A DNA stretch of 64,000 nt from Actinomadura sp. NAK00032 (GTDB taxonomy: Bacteria > Actinomycetota > Actinomycetes > Streptosporangiales > Streptosporangiaceae). Positions 2,417 to 45,047 of the stretch are shown piece by piece. The notes under the pieces were generated by a model that saw nothing but the letters and a program-made list of their open reading frames with translations, searched no databases and was not told the DNA's origin. The position numbers and the translations under genes are program-made. The stretch covers positions 5,580,001 to 5,644,000 of the forward strand of contig NZ_CP054932.1 of the NCBI RefSeq assembly GCF_013364275.1, in the 5' to 3' direction. Each line of letters begins with the position of its first letter. The first letter of the stretch is position 1.

Positions 2417-4269
2417 GCGGGTGCCCCCAAGTACAGTTCGACGACCCGCGCGTCGCCGAGGGCCTCCTGCGGCGCCCCCGACGTCACCAGCTCGCCCCGG
2501 TCCAGGACCGTCACCACGTCCGCGACGTTCGCGACGAGTTCGATGTGGTGTTCCACCAGGACGACGGTGGTGCCGGCGTCGCGGATCGCGCGGATCAGGC
2601 GTCCCAGCGCCTCCAGCTCCCGCGGGGTGAGCCCGGCCGCCGGCTCGTCCATCAGCAGCAGGCGCGGCCGCGCCATCAGGGCCCGCGCCACCTCCAGCAG
2701 CCGCTGCTCGCCGTGCGGCAGCGCGGCGGCCTCCTCGTCCGCCCGCCGGGCCAGGCCGTGGCCGGCCAGGAGCCGGTCGGCCTCCGCCACCAGCGCGGCC
2801 CGCTCGCGGCGGGCCCGCGGCAGCCGCAGGACGGTCGCCGGCCCGCCCGCCCGTTCGCGCGCGTAGGCGCCGAGCAGGACATTGTCGCGCAGGCTCGACG
2901 CCCCGAGCAGCCGCGGCGTCTGGAAGACGCGCGCGACACCGCGCCGGGCGAGCCGCTCGGCGGTGGCCCCGCTGACGTCCTCGGCGCCGAGGAGGATCCG
3001 TCCCTCATCCTGCCGCAGCAGGCGGCTGATCACATTGAGCAGGGTCGTCTTCCCCGACCCGTTCGGCCCGACGATCGCGTGCACCTTGCCGGGCTCGATG
3101 GTGAGGTCGACGCCGCGCAGGGCGTGCACGCCGCCGAAGGACTTGCGGACGCCGGACAGTTCGACGCCGAGCGGTTCGCCGCGCGGCGGCCCCACCTCCG
3201 CGGCGTCCTCCACGGCGATGTCTTCCACGGCGGCGTCCTCCACGGCGGCGTCCTCGACGGCGGTGTCCTCCACGGCATCGGCGGCGTAACCGGAGGCAGG
3301 CACGCGGCCGCTCCGGTAACGCGCCCGCAACTTGTCCCACGCCCCCGCGATGCCCTGCGGCGCGTAAACCATCAGCACGAGCAGCGCCGCGCCGTAGATG
3401 AGGCCGCGCCACTCCGCCAGGCCCGTCAGCAACTCCGGGAGCGCGAAGAACAGCAGGGTGCCGATGATCGGGCCCGCCAGGCGCGCCGCGCCGCCGATGA
3501 TGACCACCAGCAGGAAGAGGATCGAGAAGTCGAGCGTGAAGTCGTCGGGCGTGACCAGCCCGTGGTGGACGGCCAGCAGCGCCCCGCCCATCCCGGCGGT
3601 GGCGCCGCCGCAGGCGAACGCGAACAGCTTCGTCCGCGCGGGGCCGACGCCGACGCTCCGCGCCATCTCCGGCGCGTCCCGGACGGCCATCATGCCCCGG
3701 CCCAGGCGGGAGTCGACGATGTTGCGGACCATGACGAACAGTACGACGTTCACGGCGATGACCAGCCAGAGGACGTCCCGCTCCCCCAACTCCCACGACC
3801 CGATCGCAGGCCGCGGTATGCCGACCAGCCCGGACCAGCCCCCGGTCAGCCCCTCGAACTCGACCAGCAGGCTGCGCACCGCCATCGCCGCGCCGAGCGT
3901 CACCAGGGCGATGTACCAGGACGACAGCCGGAACGCGGGAAGCGCCATCAGCGTCCCGGCGGCCGTGGTGACCACCACCGCCGCGGGGGCCGCCGCCCAG
4001 AACGCCCAGCCGTGGTCGACCATGAGGGCGCCGGTCGTGTAGGCGCCGACGGCGACCAGCGCGCCCTGGCCGAGCGAGACCTGGCCGGTGTAGCCGAACA
4101 TGATGTTCAGCCCCGTCCCCACCACCACGTAGATCGCGGCCGTGGTGGCGAGGTAGGTGATCGTGGGGTCGCCGCTCACCAGCGGCAGCACGGCGGCCGC
4201 CGCCAGGAGGACGAGCCAGGGGGCGGCACGCCGCACGGTGCCGGACCGGGTCCGGAGGATTTCAGACAT
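2413..4269 (-). CDS. LivM permease fused to LivG ATPase
   Basis: A 618-residue fusion. Residues ~1-330 are a LivM-type membrane permease: many hydrophobic segments and the family motif NIMFGYTGQVSLGQGA. Residues ~375-618 are a LivG-type ATPase with Walker A GPNGSGKTT, a degenerate signature LPHGEQ and Walker B LLLMDEPAAGL. The two halves are joined by an acidic linker of five VED(T/A/I)A repeats. I chose the ATG at 4269 because it overlaps the livH stop by 8 bases and begins MSEILRTRSG; longer readings run back through livH. LivM-LivG fusions are known in actinobacteria. The repeat linker is the unusual part. Confidence 0.9.
   Translation of the reverse strand: MSEILRTRSGTVRRAAPWLVLLAAAAVLPLVSGDPTITYLATTAAIYVVVGTGLNIMFGYTGQVSLGQGALVAVGAYTTGALMVDHGWAFWAAAPAAVVVTTAAGTLMALPAFRLSSWYIALVTLGAAMAVRSLLVEFEGLTGGWSGLVGIPRPAIGSWELGERDVLWLVIAVNVVLFVMVRNIVDSRLGRGMMAVRDAPEMARSVGVGPARTKLFAFACGGATAGMGGALLAVHHGLVTPDDFTLDFSILFLLVVIIGGAARLAGPIIGTLLFFALPELLTGLAEWRGLIYGAALLVLMVYAPQGIAGAWDKLRARYRSGRVPASGYAADAVEDTAVEDAAVEDAAVEDIAVEDAAEVGPPRGEPLGVELSGVRKSFGGVHALRGVDLTIEPGKVHAIVGPNGSGKTTLLNVISRLLRQDEGRILLGAEDVSGATAERLARRGVARVFQTPRLLGASSLRDNVLLGAYARERAGGPATVLRLPRARRERAALVAEADRLLAGHGLARRADEEAAALPHGEQRLLEVARALMARPRLLLMDEPAAGLTPRELEALGRLIRAIRDAGTTVVLVEHHIELVANVADVVTVLDRGELVTSGAPQEALGDARVVELYLGAPA
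3201..3275 (-). repeat. Five 15-bp in-frame tandem repeats (VED linker)
   Basis: Five contiguous 15-bp units of the form CGGCGTCCTCCACGG (plus strand) with a few substitutions. They encode the VED(T/A/I)A linker between the permease and ATPase halves. The period is a multiple of three, so copy-number change would alter linker length without shifting frame. Confidence 0.85.
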
Positions 4270-27756: not shown

Positions 27757-27770
27757 TGTGTCGTAAGGGG

Positions 27771-27842
27771 TGGGCGATACTGGGTTCGAACCAGTGACCT
27801 CTTCGGTGTGAACGAAGCGCTCTCCCACTGAGCTAATCGCCC
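27771..27842 (-). tRNA. tRNA-Val(CAC)
   Basis: Minus strand GGGCGAT ... ATCGCCC acceptor, D arm AGCTCAGTGGGAGAGC, anticodon stem CTTCG/CGAAG with loop TTCACAC (anticodon CAC), T arm CTGGTTCGAACCCAG, discriminator A, and no encoded CCA. 72 nt. Its 3' end faces the accessory region. The stop codon of the upstream membrane-protein gene lies inside its first ten bases. Confidence 0.96.
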
Positions 27843-32536: not shown

Positions 32537-33472
32537 ATGGCACGGGAGATGCTCGGGATCGACATCGGCGGGTCGGGGATCAAGGGAGCGCCGGTCGATC
32601 CGTCCGGCGCGTTCACGCGGGAGCGGTTCCGGATCGAGACGCCGCGGCCCGCCAGGCCGAAGCCGGTCGCGAAGGTCATCGCCGAGATCGTCGACCACTT
32701 CGGCTGGGACGGCCCGGTGGGCGTCACCTATCCCGGCGTCGTGATCGACGGTGTGGCGATGTCGGCGGCGAACGTGTCCAAGCACTGGCTCGGGGTGGAC
32801 GCCGCCGCCCTGTTCGCGGACGCCACCGGGTGCGAGATCACGCTGCTCAACGACGCGGACGCGGCCGGGGTGGCGGAGATGCGGCTCGGCGCGGGGCGCG
32901 GCCGGCGCGGCACCATCGTCCTGCTCACGCTCGGGACGGGCATCGGCAGCGCGCTGTTCACCGACGGCGTCCTCGTCCCGAACACCGAGTTCGGGCACAT
33001 CCAGATCGACGGGCGGGACGCCGAGCTCCGCGCGTCCGCGCGGGCGCGCACCGAGGAGGGCCTCAGCTGGCCGAAGTGGGCCGGGCGGCTCAGCGTGTAC
33101 CTGCGGCACCTGGAGGCGCTGATCTCGCCGTCGCTGATCATCGTCGGCGGCGGGGTGAGCCGGAAGGCCGAGCACTTCCTGCCGCTGGTCGAGGGGGTGC
33201 GGGCGGAGATCGTCCCGGCCCGGCTGGTGAACAACGCGGGGATCGTGGGCGCGGCGATGGCGGCGGCCGCCGCGCATCCGGCGGAGACCGCCGAGCCCGT
33301 GCCGCACGCGGTCCGGGCGGCCGGGGCGACCGGCGGGCCGCAGCGCGAGCCCGGCACCGCCGAAGCCGCCCGCCGAGCCCGCCCGCCGAGCCCGCCCGCC
33401 GAGCCCGCCCGCCGAGCCCGCCCGCTGAGCCCGCCCGCTGAGCCCGCCCGCCGCCCCGGCCGGACCGGCTAG
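32537..33472 (+). CDS. ppgK: Polyphosphate glucokinase (ROK family)
   Basis: A 311-residue cytosolic enzyme that phosphorylates glucose with polyphosphate or ATP, typical of actinobacteria. It has the phosphate-1 motif LGIDIGGSGIKGAPVD, catalytic LLNDADAAG, LTLGTGIGSALFTDG and ROK-like EFGHIQIDG. ATG 32537 gives the usual short N-terminus. GGAGG is only 1 base upstream of it, so ATG 32513 or 32549 are alternatives. The last ~50 residues are low-complexity PSPPAEPARRAR repeats from a 13-bp DNA repeat and are not part of the family fold. The stop overlaps the convergent GH38 stop by 4 bases. Confidence 0.93.
   Translation: MAREMLGIDIGGSGIKGAPVDPSGAFTRERFRIETPRPARPKPVAKVIAEIVDHFGWDGPVGVTYPGVVIDGVAMSAANVSKHWLGVDAAALFADATGCEITLLNDADAAGVAEMRLGAGRGRRGTIVLLTLGTGIGSALFTDGVLVPNTEFGHIQIDGRDAELRASARARTEEGLSWPKWAGRLSVYLRHLEALISPSLIIVGGGVSRKAEHFLPLVEGVRAEIVPARLVNNAGIVGAAMAAAAAHPAETAEPVPHAVRAAGATGGPQREPGTAEAARRARPPSPPAEPARRARPLSPPAEPARRPGRTG
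33375..33452. repeat. Six tandem 13-bp repeats at the 3' end of ppgK
   Basis: GAGCCCGCCCGCC (or ...GCT) occurs at 33375, 33388, 33401, 33414, 33427 and 33440 with exact 13-base spacing. Because 13 is not a multiple of three, the protein repeat is 13 residues (three DNA units), and gain or loss of one unit would shift the frame of the ppgK C-terminus. Confidence 0.92.
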
Positions 33473-43463: not shown

Positions 43464-43588
43464 GCCACCGACCCTAGGCGACCCGTCCTTCGACGCCCGT
43501 CGAAGCGTCCCGCGCACCCGCCGCCGAAACCCGGTTTGGGGAACGGCCTCCGACGCGCTAAAGTCTTCCTCGTCGCCGCAGGGCGCAC

Positions 43589-43660
43589 GCGGAAGTGGCT
43601 CAGGGGTAGAGCATCACCTTGCCAAGGTGAGGGTCGCGGGTTCAAATCCCGTCTTCCGCT
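43589..43660 (+). tRNA. tRNA-Gly(GCC)
   Basis: GCGGAAG/CTTCCGC acceptor, D arm GGCTCAGGGGTAGAGC, anticodon stem TCACC/GGTGA with loop TTGCCAA (GCC), T arm CGCGGGTTCAAATCCCG, discriminator T, no CCA. 72 nt. Confidence 0.96.
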
Positions 43661-43700
43661 CTGAGGGGCCTTTCGGCTATGACCCAGAAGGTCTCATTCT

Positions 43701-43771
43701 GGTGGAGTGGCCGAGAGGCGAGGCAACGGCCTGCAAAGCCGTGTACACGGGTTCAAATCCCGTCTCCACCT
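43701..43771 (+). tRNA. tRNA-Cys(GCA)
   Basis: GGTGGAG/CTCCACC acceptor, D arm GGCCGAGAGGCGAGGC, anticodon loop CTGCAAA (GCA), T arm ACGGGTTCAAATCCCGT, discriminator T. 71 nt, 40 bases after tRNA-Gly. Confidence 0.96.
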
Positions 43772-43805
43772 CAACGCCGTACCTCCCCCCGGAGGCCGCG
43801 GAAAC

Positions 43806-43877
43806 GGGCGATTAGCTCAGTGGGAGAGCGCTACCTTGACACGGTAGAGGCCACTGGTTCAATCCCAGTATCGCCCA
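43806..43877 (+). tRNA. tRNA-Val(GAC)
   Basis: GGGCGAT/ATCGCCC acceptor, D arm AGCTCAGTGGGAGAGC, anticodon stem CTACC/GGTAG with loop TTGACAC (GAC), T arm CTGGTTCAATCCCAG, discriminator A. 72 nt. Third gene of the Gly-Cys-Val array. Its D arm and acceptor match tRNA-Val(CAC) at 27771-27842. Confidence 0.96.
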
Positions 43878-43973
43878 CTTCGGAGTGGGAGTGGTGTGCT
43901 CGAAGCCTTTGGCTTCTTCGCCGCCACTCCTTCGTCATGTTGACCCGGGGGGCGACCCCCGGACCCCCGATGT

Positions 43974-44425
43974 GGGGGGCTCCGCCCCCCACGCCCCCCT
44001 CCCGGCTCAGGTTCGCGCTTATGTGCTGCCGACGCGAGGTTCTGTTTTTTTGGGGCTCCGCCCCTTGCCCCCTCCTGGCTCGGCTTCTGCTTGGGGCTCC
44101 GCCCCCCTCCCGGCTCAGGTTCGCGCTTATGTGCTGTCGGCGCGGGGTTCTGTTTTTTGGGGCTCCGCCCCTTGCCCCCTCCTGGCTCGGCTTCTGCTTG
44201 GGGCTCCGCCCCCCTCCCGGCTCAGGTTCGCGCTTACGTGCTGCCGGCGCGAGGTCCTGTTTTTGGGGGCTCCGCCCCTTGCCCCCTCCTGGCTCGGCTT
44301 CTGTTTGGGGCTCCGCCCCCCTCCCGGCTCAGGTTCGCGCTTACGTGCTGCCGGCGCGGGGTTCTGTTTTTGGGGCTCCGCCCCTTGCCCCCTCCTGGCT
44401 CGGCTTCTGCTTGGGGCTCCGCCCC
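43974..44425 (+). repeat. ~107-bp tandem repeat array with nine GGGGCTCCGCCCC hairpins
   Basis: The landmark CCCGGCTCAGGTTCGCGCTT recurs at 44001, 44109, 44216 and 44323 (spacing 108, 107, 107). Each unit holds a T-run (TTCTGTTTTT), two copies of the perfect stem GGGGC-TCC-GCCCC and CCCCTCCTGGCTCGGCTTCT. The stem appears at 43976, 44052, 44093, 44159, 44200, 44266, 44307, 44372 and 44413. The array begins about 100 bases after the tRNA array and fills most of the gap to the Excalibur gene. Long translations across it are artefacts. Confidence 0.93.
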
Positions 44426-44489
44426 TTGCCTCCTCCGGCTTTGGTCGGTACTTCGTGGGCGGTCGGCGGCTGCTCGTCGCCGTGGTGGG

Positions 44490-45047
44490 TCAGGTGTCGC
44501 AGGCGATGCCGTCGCCGTCGCGGTCCAGGTCGTAGATGTCGGAGCCGGTCACGCGGACCGGGCCCTGGACGTAGGCGGGGCCGTTGCCGCTGCCGCCTGC
44601 GCAGTCGACGTCACTGGCGATCGGGACGCAGGCGCCGCTGTAGTTCGGGTCGCATGAGCGGGCGCGCTTGGTGCCCACGGCGATGATCCGGGTCACCGGA
44701 GGCCTGGTGACCTTCTGGCCGAGCAGTTTGCGGGACGTCTCCGCGCCGGCGGTGTACGTGACCTCGTAGGTCAGCTTCTTGATGCCGGTGGCGCCCTTTC
44801 TGCGCACGCGGGTCTTACCCGCGGCAAGGGTCGGGTCGTCCACCTTCCTCGTCTTGTACGGGATCTTGCGGGTGGTGGTGACCTTGCGCTTCTCTACCGG
44901 CGGGGTGGTGGGCGGAGTCGTGGTCGCCGGTGCCGTGGTCGCGGGGGTGCCAGACGCCGCCGCCTCGATGGGGGCGGCGGCGTTCGAGTCGCAGGCGCTC
45001 AGCAGCAGAAGGCCTCCGGCCGCCAGGCCGGCGATCATGCGTTTCAT
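44490..45047 (-). CDS. Lipoprotein with G5-like region and Excalibur calcium-binding domain
   Basis: A 185-residue secreted protein. The signal peptide MKRMIAGLAAGGLLLLSAC carries a lipobox Cys. A Thr/Pro-rich spacer precedes a G5-like segment (VTTTRKIPYKTRKVDDPTLA ... YEVTYTAGAETSRKLL). The C-terminal Excalibur domain (RSCDPNYSGACVP ... DLDRDGDGIACD) has the EF-hand-like DxDxDG loop. It is probably attached to the membrane facing the wall and binds Ca2+. Its role is unknown. It is transcribed towards the repeat array. Confidence 0.9.
   Translation of the reverse strand: MKRMIAGLAAGGLLLLSACDSNAAAPIEAAASGTPATTAPATTTPPTTPPVEKRKVTTTRKIPYKTRKVDDPTLAAGKTRVRRKGATGIKKLTYEVTYTAGAETSRKLLGQKVTRPPVTRIIAVGTKRARSCDPNYSGACVPIASDVDCAGGSGNGPAYVQGPVRVTGSDIYDLDRDGDGIACDT

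Follow-up and report, generated by a model that had tools for sequence, protein, structure and literature searches.

GC-rich actinobacteria have to end transcription with few U-tracts; how they do so is an open question, for which the genes of stable RNAs make the strongest test. A locus of Actinomadura sp. NAK00032 raises this question in a concrete form: behind three tRNA genes, one and the same short GC-rich hairpin stands nine times in succession, and what are nine copies for? The answer that we develop here is that in this group of bacteria the hairpin is normally present singly or in a few copies at the ends of tRNA genes, and that its expansion to nine most likely provides backup stops. 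Coordinates refer to the window, by which we mean the whole 64-kb stretch of DNA that was analysed (64,000 nucleotides), unless they are marked C1. The features of the locus are as follows.

43589–43661, + strand: tRNA-Gly (GCC) (ARAGORN, Rfam RF00005)
43701–43772, + strand: tRNA-Cys (GCA) (ARAGORN, Rfam RF00005)
43806–43878, + strand: tRNA-Val (GAC), third and last of the trio (ARAGORN, Rfam RF00005)
43888–43930, + strand: first hairpin 3′ of tRNA-Val, GGAGTGG...CCACTCC, then weakly T-rich TTCGTCATGTT (RNA folding)
43945–43962, + strand: module hairpin A, CCGGGGG-GCGA-CCCCCGG, conserved across tRNA loci
43964–43968, + strand: C5 run 3′ of hairpin A, part of the search pattern
43972–43992, + strand: module hairpin B containing stem 1 (GTGGGGGGCTCCGCCCCCCAC), then G and CCCCCC
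43976–44051, + strand: array, first long copy (76 bp), from stem 1 to T7
44052–44158, + strand: array, 107-bp unit 1, a 41-bp short and a 66-bp long copy, stems 2 and 3
44159–44265, + strand: array, 107-bp unit 2, stems 4 and 5
44266–44371, + strand: array, unit 3 (106 bp), stems 6 and 7
44372–44412, + strand: array, last complete short copy, stem 8
44413–44453, + strand: array, stem 9 and a decayed short copy
44490–45047, − strand: convergent gene facing the array, 185 aa (open reading frame; orthologue in the same place in locus L168 of A. meyerae, 81% identity)

The array starts 98 bp behind the end of tRNA-Val (GAC), and the convergent gene at 44490–45047, whose product has what we take to be a lipoprotein-like start and an excalibur-like C-terminus, closes the intergenic space that holds it. 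The first hairpin folds at about −26 to −28 kcal/mol and, as judged by eye, has a like shape at many of the module loci described below; from its predicted folding, it is the probable primary terminator of the tRNA trio.

The sequence-only reading of this DNA had described a tandem array of about 107 bp per unit, with a T-run plus two stems in each unit and nine identical GC stems overall, located after tRNA genes, and all of this is confirmed. When both strands of the whole window were searched, nine exact copies of GGGGCTCCGCCCC were found, all on the + strand and spanning 43976–44425, with starts at 43976, 44052, 44093, 44159, 44200, 44266, 44307, 44372 and 44413 (spacings of 76, 41, 66, 41, 66, 41, 65 and 41 bp); the remainder of the window contains no further copy on either strand, and GGGGCNNNGCCCC is likewise absent from the window outside the array. 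Tandem Repeats Finder reports 43992–44425 with a period of 107, 4.1 copies, 95% matches and a score of 789, the top of its 19 rows, and the Gly-GCC, Cys-GCA, Val-GAC trio lies at 43589–43878. The 107-bp unit is itself a dimer of a 65- to 66-bp long copy, which has the T-run at its end, and a 41-bp shortened copy, so that a T-run (T7, T6, T5 plus a G, and T5) precedes the first stem of every unit; the first long copy of the array is 76 bp and the final short copy has decayed. Since 2000 shuffles of the array's letters gave a mean of 0.0145 stems and a maximum of 1, the nine observed are far beyond chance. Folded as a whole, the array is no more stable than 100 shuffles of it (z −0.98; 19 of the 100 equal or more stable). 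Its composition is strongly skewed (A 2.7%, T 26%, pyrimidine 67%), with the lowest A content of any 450-bp stretch on either strand of the window. Homopolymer lengths vary among the units, and the short 41-bp copy is present as well. An assembly artefact is unlikely as the source of the array, because its units differ from one another and similar arrays occur in other assemblies. Elsewhere in the window, two other tandem repeats lie at 33346–33453 (13 bp × 8.2, CGAGCCCGCCCGC) and 3200–3276 (15 bp × 5.1, GCGGCGTCCTCCACG), and a tRNA-Val (CAC) on the − strand at 27769–27842 has downstream of it a frame that resembles an IS256-type transposase.

The rest of the genome ties the stem to the ends of RNA genes. 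The 9.43-Mb genome contains 16 exact copies of the 13-mer GGGGCTCCGCCCC, of which the array accounts for nine, as against four occurrences of the pattern read backwards. Four of the seven sites outside the array lie on the sense strand 89–98 nt behind an RNA gene, namely the tRNA-Val of a second trio, a tRNA-Met, a tRNA-Ala (GGC) and the tmRNA; a uniform binomial model puts the probability of four in seven sites lying no more than 150 nt past one of 50 unit ends at about 1e-12. Allowing one mismatch adds two more tRNA-Met (CAT) genes with the stem at 123–124 nt and a looser version of the module, so that a stem with at most one mismatch stands on the sense strand behind 7 of the 50 RNA transcription-unit ends (49 tRNA units plus the tmRNA), its first copy at 89–124 nt. 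No reverse-oriented stem was found within 400 nt behind these 50 ends, and stems were also absent from the 400 nt downstream of each of the five 5S genes, from the DNA upstream of 63 tRNAs (21,600 of 25,200 bases examined, with all 400 nt for 45 tRNAs and at least 200 for 18) and from 240 kb of control DNA. The fifth exact site, at 90,963, has the full module and no recognised RNA gene: at C1:90909–90984 (L005, L118), the complete module and a first hairpin follow a short + strand frame, with no recognisable RNA gene ahead. The last two exact sites, at 3,160,435 and 3,245,496, lack a complete module. The earlier statement that single stems of this type are common near actinobacterial genes holds for some other genera and fails for this genome, in which few exact stems are found away from the ends of RNA genes.

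Other G5/C5 hairpin repeats (e.g., CCAGGGGGGCGACCCCCTGGAACCCCC) are scattered between the genes of NAK00032 in both orientations, often as pairs or triplets in tandem (C1:1510272–1510628, 1863587–1864048, 3348635–3349017, 3951315–3951424 and 9178498–9178631); some adjoin tRNAs, as at tRNA-Leu (TAA) at 1863505 and, as a single repeat, behind tRNA-Glu at 2605354. In a sample of the class, GGGGCTNCGCCCC followed by CCCC was found in 43 of 197 genomes (G066, G084, G128, G170 and others), and it is strongly over-represented in one genus, where single genomes have as many as 48 forward and 67 reverse matches vs 0–1 for the reversed pattern, counts that are somewhat inflated because matches to this gapped pattern can overlap.

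The stem is part of a larger conserved element, which we refer to as the 3′ module of tRNA and tmRNA genes. Its order is the first hairpin, hairpin A (G5-[GCGA]-C5 plus flanking pairs), a C5 run, GATGT, hairpin B (GTGGGGG-CTCC-GCCCCCAC) and ACGCCCC. Scanning 84,980 species genomes for the core CCCCCGATGTGGGG...CTCCGCCCC returned 84 stretches, of which 80 loci with 81 matches were analysed; the invariance of the core and of the C5 run at these loci is by construction, and hairpin A and ACGCCCC lay outside the search pattern. The hosts are mostly Actinomadura, together with Kutzneria, Planomonospora, Actinoallomurus and one Thermomonosporaceae MAG. For most matches (68 of 81), ARAGORN calls a tRNA or tmRNA gene on the same strand that ends no more than 300 nt before the match; 64 of these 68 lie at 72–89 nt and the rest at 31, 183, 211 and 260 nt. 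The RNA genes concerned are those for Met (18), Ala (GGC) (12), Val (GAC) (12), Leu (CAG) (9), Ile (5), Asn (4) and eight others; in a ranking of codon usage by eye, Ala-GGC comes first and Val-GAC ninth among the 43 anticodons listed. The 13 matches without an RNA call were inspected by eye: four have a cut-off tRNA end at the edge of the locus (L139, L162, L163, L189), one has an uncalled tRNA-like sequence (L180), two have a tRNA-Asn-like 3′ fragment (L144, L170), one is too close to the edge to judge (L197), and in the remaining five (L147, L153, L156, L204, L206; 5 of 81 matches) no RNA gene was seen. On these 13 loci, Rfam gave only a c-di-AMP riboswitch, in L162. A tRNA-Asn fragment also occurs in NAK00032: the tRNA-Asn gene at C1:2981411–2981483 is followed by sequence that we take to be integrase-like, and about 17.5 kb away (2998939) a tRNA-Asn-like 3′ fragment precedes hairpin A and the C run (L057, L123). 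An integrated element seems to have split this tRNA-Asn gene from its module, and L144 and L170 look alike.

Hairpin A is kept as a structure and not only as a sequence, as the compensatory changes at its pair 6 demonstrate: among the 42 loci compared, this pair is C-G in 20, G-C in 8, T-A in 7, A-T in 1 and unpaired in this register in 6. The loci come from an alignment of 45 of 63 prepared references, 42 of which fitted the hairpin A expression (3 were excluded). The outer pairs 8 and 9 are paired in only 22 and 7 of the 42 loci, respectively. The commonest loop is GCGA, presumably of the GNRA type. RNAalifold returned 9 pairs and no covariation for the module, an outcome explained by the invariance of its G and C arms.

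What has been multiplied locally and in tandem to give the array is the GC-hairpin part of this module, and the number of stems varies widely from locus to locus. Among 71 module loci (65 from the named collection plus 6 from NAK00032), 39 have one stem, 16 have two, 9 have three, 2 have four, 3 have five and 1 has nine, and L160 has a changed stem. Arrays of 3–5 stems thus occur at 14 other loci (Val, Met, Ala, Leu and Ile), including a tRNA-Met of the NAK00032 genome, and where there are four or five stems, at five loci, the units share a plan: a T-rich end, GGGGCTNCGCCCC, TTG or similar, CCCCC and a species-specific body. At the orthologous trio locus of A. meyerae (L168), where the flanking proteins are 93.5% and 81% identical to those of NAK00032, there is one stem; this locus, with the same flanking genes in each case, has nine stems in NAK00032 vs one in L168/L251. 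The second Val trio of NAK00032, 74 kb away, is identical over the first 121 bp and then has one exact and two variant stems. The suggestion that this might be a variable-number locus is borne out between species, by the A. meyerae orthologue, and between paralogues, by the second Val trio, which are the levels that a comparison of one genome per species covers.

Why should a hairpin be multiplied behind a tRNA gene? We give a probability of roughly 0.55 to the reading, drawn from sequence, that the array is a set of tandem backup terminators of the I-shaped (U-less) kind, produced by local expansion of the conserved module. RNA polymerase would often run through a leaky first hairpin downstream of the tRNA; the GC hairpins that follow, short and U-less and with C-rich tails, could then act as backup sites of termination or 3′-end formation (I-shaped, pause-type or Rho-assisted), and their copies could have been multiplied by replication slippage or unequal exchange. 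Nine stems would offer successive chances to stop transcripts before the convergent gene at 44490–45047. The stability expected of such a hairpin behind a gene is present: each of the nine stems has five G-C pairs, though the bare 13-nt stem folds at only −7.9 kcal/mol, as against −20.3 kcal/mol for hairpin B. The stems are not canonical intrinsic terminators, because C rather than T stands behind them (in the first 8 nt, C 0.68 and T 0.11, over the 60 stems that have a further stem behind). A canonical terminator in each unit, formed by a hairpin before the T-run, was considered and rejected: the segments are no more stable than shuffles that keep letters only and not dinucleotides (mean z −0.34, n = 42, the unit bodies of at least 50 bp out of 60). 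A weaker T-tract after the first hairpin at module loci was also unsupported, with 2.8 vs 2.25 T in 9 nt, the opposite of expectation, in a comparison whose automatic hairpin borders are unreliable. The earlier idea of a multi-step terminator stands as the most likely function, with position, orientation and hairpin covariation pointing to it, and does not stand in its canonical form, since the stems have no U-tract. Fixed place and orientation, compensatory changes, variable copy number and strand asymmetry are properties that the 3′ module has; ending transcripts is the role that we infer for it.

Precedent for such ends exists and is mixed. Excerpts of three reports on Streptomyces 3′ ends describe many with a strong hairpin and few or no U, and discuss the U-less ones as I-shaped or Rho-related (PMC8269248, PMC12207403, PMC6742748). 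According to the excerpt of a mycobacterial study, a U-less operon hairpin reduced reporter expression in vivo; it also refers to contradictory in vitro work, where the M. bovis polymerase stopped only if a U-tract was present (PMC5335608).

A second line of evidence comes from strand asymmetry downstream of the RNA genes. Transcription exposes the non-template strand, on which cytosine deamination leads to C-to-T asymmetry; read-through of an RNA gene could in this way leave a C-to-T imprint. The T-A skew of the RNA-sense strand was taken at 65 of the 68 loci (three more than 150 nt behind the RNA were dropped, and no identical copies were among those kept). It is −0.035 to −0.087 upstream of the RNA, 0.28 in the first 50 nt behind it, 0.61–0.64 at 100–200 nt, 0.34 at 300–400 nt and 0.03 at 700–900 nt, with fewer loci contributing as distance increases. 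At window positions 43879–45047 as well as at the module loci, the excess of T over A (C-to-T) peaks at 100–250 nt and fades by about 500–700 nt. Gene calls made over whole open frames by a crude third-position GC rule give a convergent first downstream gene at 34 of 72 loci and a codirectional one at 23, and leave it uncalled at 15. At third positions of convergent genes, read on the RNA-sense strand at 200–400 nt, T is 0.14–0.15 and C is 0.28–0.29, vs about 0.03 and 0.40 in 137 control genes; third-position T is 0.05–0.06 at 500–900 nt but 0.08 at 900–1200 nt, where A is raised too. A paired near-far test of the 18 of 34 convergent genes with enough sites agrees more weakly: close to the RNA, T is raised in 12 of these 18 genes (p 0.024), C is reduced in 15 (p 0.010) and A in 17. 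The P values ignore shared ancestry. In codirectional genes (n = 9), T and A are both higher near the RNA.

The asymmetry goes with the module. Val trios are present in 62 of 65 genomes of the genus, usually twice; among the best 30 loci from those 62 genomes, after one at a contig end (L252) was dropped, the skew was 0.46 with the module (n = 13) vs 0.07 without it (n = 16), although module-less loci need not be the same chromosomal locus as module-bearing ones and widening the module rule by one pattern had moved L266 from the second group to the first (from 12/17 to 13/16). Within NAK00032, the skew averages 0.44 for 7 module units vs 0.04 for 43 other RNA units, and is small despite the module at the tmRNA (0.07) and the tRNA-Ala (0.14). 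We infer that the asymmetry is a trace of read-through transcription; another cause is possible.

If extra stems blocked transcripts strongly, one might look for a shorter asymmetry where there are more of them. That more stems shorten it was unsupported at 300–600 nt: at equal distances, loci with at least three stems vs one show skews of 0.36 vs 0.24 (300–400 nt), 0.20 vs 0.12 (400–500 nt) and 0.13 vs 0.10 (500–600 nt), which argues against strong blocking by the extra stems. A lower value appears only at 600–750 nt (0.05 with at least three stems, −0.02 with two, 0.10 with one). Measured at 160–300 nt past the last stem, the skew is 0.10 with at least three stems and 0.26 with one, a difference that distance alone may explain.

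For this reason, we regard neutral expansion as a serious rival to the backup-terminator reading, though in our judgment a rather less probable one: a single module may be functional, and copies 2 to 9 would be functionless products of slippage in a strongly transcribed, hairpin-rich stretch. Stem numbers that run from 1 to 9 across orthologues and paralogues with no obvious pattern fit such a history, as do the homopolymer variation and the shortened copy inside the array and the undiminished asymmetry at 300–600 nt. It accounts less well for the recurrence of 3–5-stem arrays at the 14 other loci named above, and for the copies at five loci that keep the stem, mostly CCCCC, and the T-rich end (T 0.67–0.76 at the last four positions of the unit) despite C-to-T pressure.

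We think it improbable that module and array would instead be processed, by analogy with rtT RNA, into a stable 3′ trailer RNA to which termination is secondary. Hairpin A, with its mostly GCGA loop and covarying outer pairs, and the similar shape of the first hairpin at many loci would suit an RNA product, and the rtT RNA offers a precedent in the excerpts consulted (PMC8250186, PMC2965389); the array bodies, however, diverge strongly among species, and no Rfam model matched trailer or array down to E 1. A known RNA family was rejected on the same Rfam scan of 43560–44500, which gave tRNA and one weak match far below its gathering score.

Still less probable, in our view, is a site that acts as DNA, whether a REP-like mobile palindrome or a nucleoid-protein, gyrase or replication-barrier site. 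The unit is palindromic with a conserved one-sided C-run, and the other G5/C5 repeats are scattered through the intergenic DNA of the genome, but the single orientation and the placement behind RNA genes speak against it. The REP-like or gyrase site that had been proposed from the sequence finds no support, and an origin by RAYT/REP was rejected: a genome-wide Y1_Tnp search gave one match, which is partial, lies beside a frame that we take to be of the TnpB type and has no G4-C4 stem in its 3.2-kb locus. In the excerpt of a REP survey, the tags are GTAG and CGTC and the list of phyla lacks Actinobacteria (PMC3733652). That the array encodes a repetitive protein, as the long + strand open frames across it might suggest, we reject as having next to no chance, since neither the period of 107 nor most of the spacings (six of eight) can be divided by three and the frames are open because A is so scarce (2.7%) that stop codons are removed.

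Returning to backup termination, we can frame a wider version of it, which we offer as a speculation with the odds clearly against it as a whole: a lineage-specific ending of tRNA and tmRNA genes, consisting of a leaky first hairpin and a U-less, two-hairpin, C-run module that probably works with a factor and can be multiplied, with read-through leaving a lasting C-to-T imprint over about 500 bp that includes the 3′ ends of convergent genes. If this were true, the type of terminator would set the local mutation spectrum. The strand asymmetry suggests that read-through might be readable from genome sequence alone, and nature supplies a series for reporter and 3′-end work, with 1 to 9 stems and with tRNA genes of the same kind that lack the module.

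Among the titles and opening abstract lines of open-access papers listed, a coverage that takes in few subscription journals, none names the module or the array, and the only listed paper with the exact 13-mer string deals with a torque teno mini virus. Several known systems are nonetheless comparable. The generic actinobacterial G4-CTNC-GC4 plus C4 repeat has the same logic of a stem and a C-run; unlike the module, it lies within 300 nt behind a tRNA in only 3 of 30 cases in the class sample, to which each of 30 genomes contributed one locus. REP elements and BIMEs are likewise small dispersed palindromes, and BIMEs can terminate transcription according to the excerpt of PMC2965389. Here, by contrast, no dedicated RAYT was found, there is one orientation, a fixed place behind RNA genes and few exact units, and a C-run stands where REPs have the GTAG or CGTC tag given in the excerpt of PMC3733652. 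For tandem repeats that follow a tRNA gene, the closest precedent is the E. coli tyrT operon with its rtT RNA. Its repeats are 178 bp long, contain a copy of the tRNA end and are associated with a Rho-dependent stop. The present units are shorter than that, no copy of the tRNA end was seen by eye in the NAK00032 array, and the Rfam scan gave no match to the rtT family. What the two share, to judge from excerpts that describe a "repeat structure" and rtT as a by-product, is tandem repeats directly behind a tRNA gene and in the direction of the same transcript (PMC8250186, PMC2965389). Also comparable are the I-shaped or "highly structured, U-lacking" ends of GC-rich actinobacteria, with which the module shares a short, very GC-rich sense hairpin behind a gene and no U-tract, and from which it differs in its near-invariant sequence, its tandem multiplication and its constant spacing from the tRNA and tmRNA genes that carry it.
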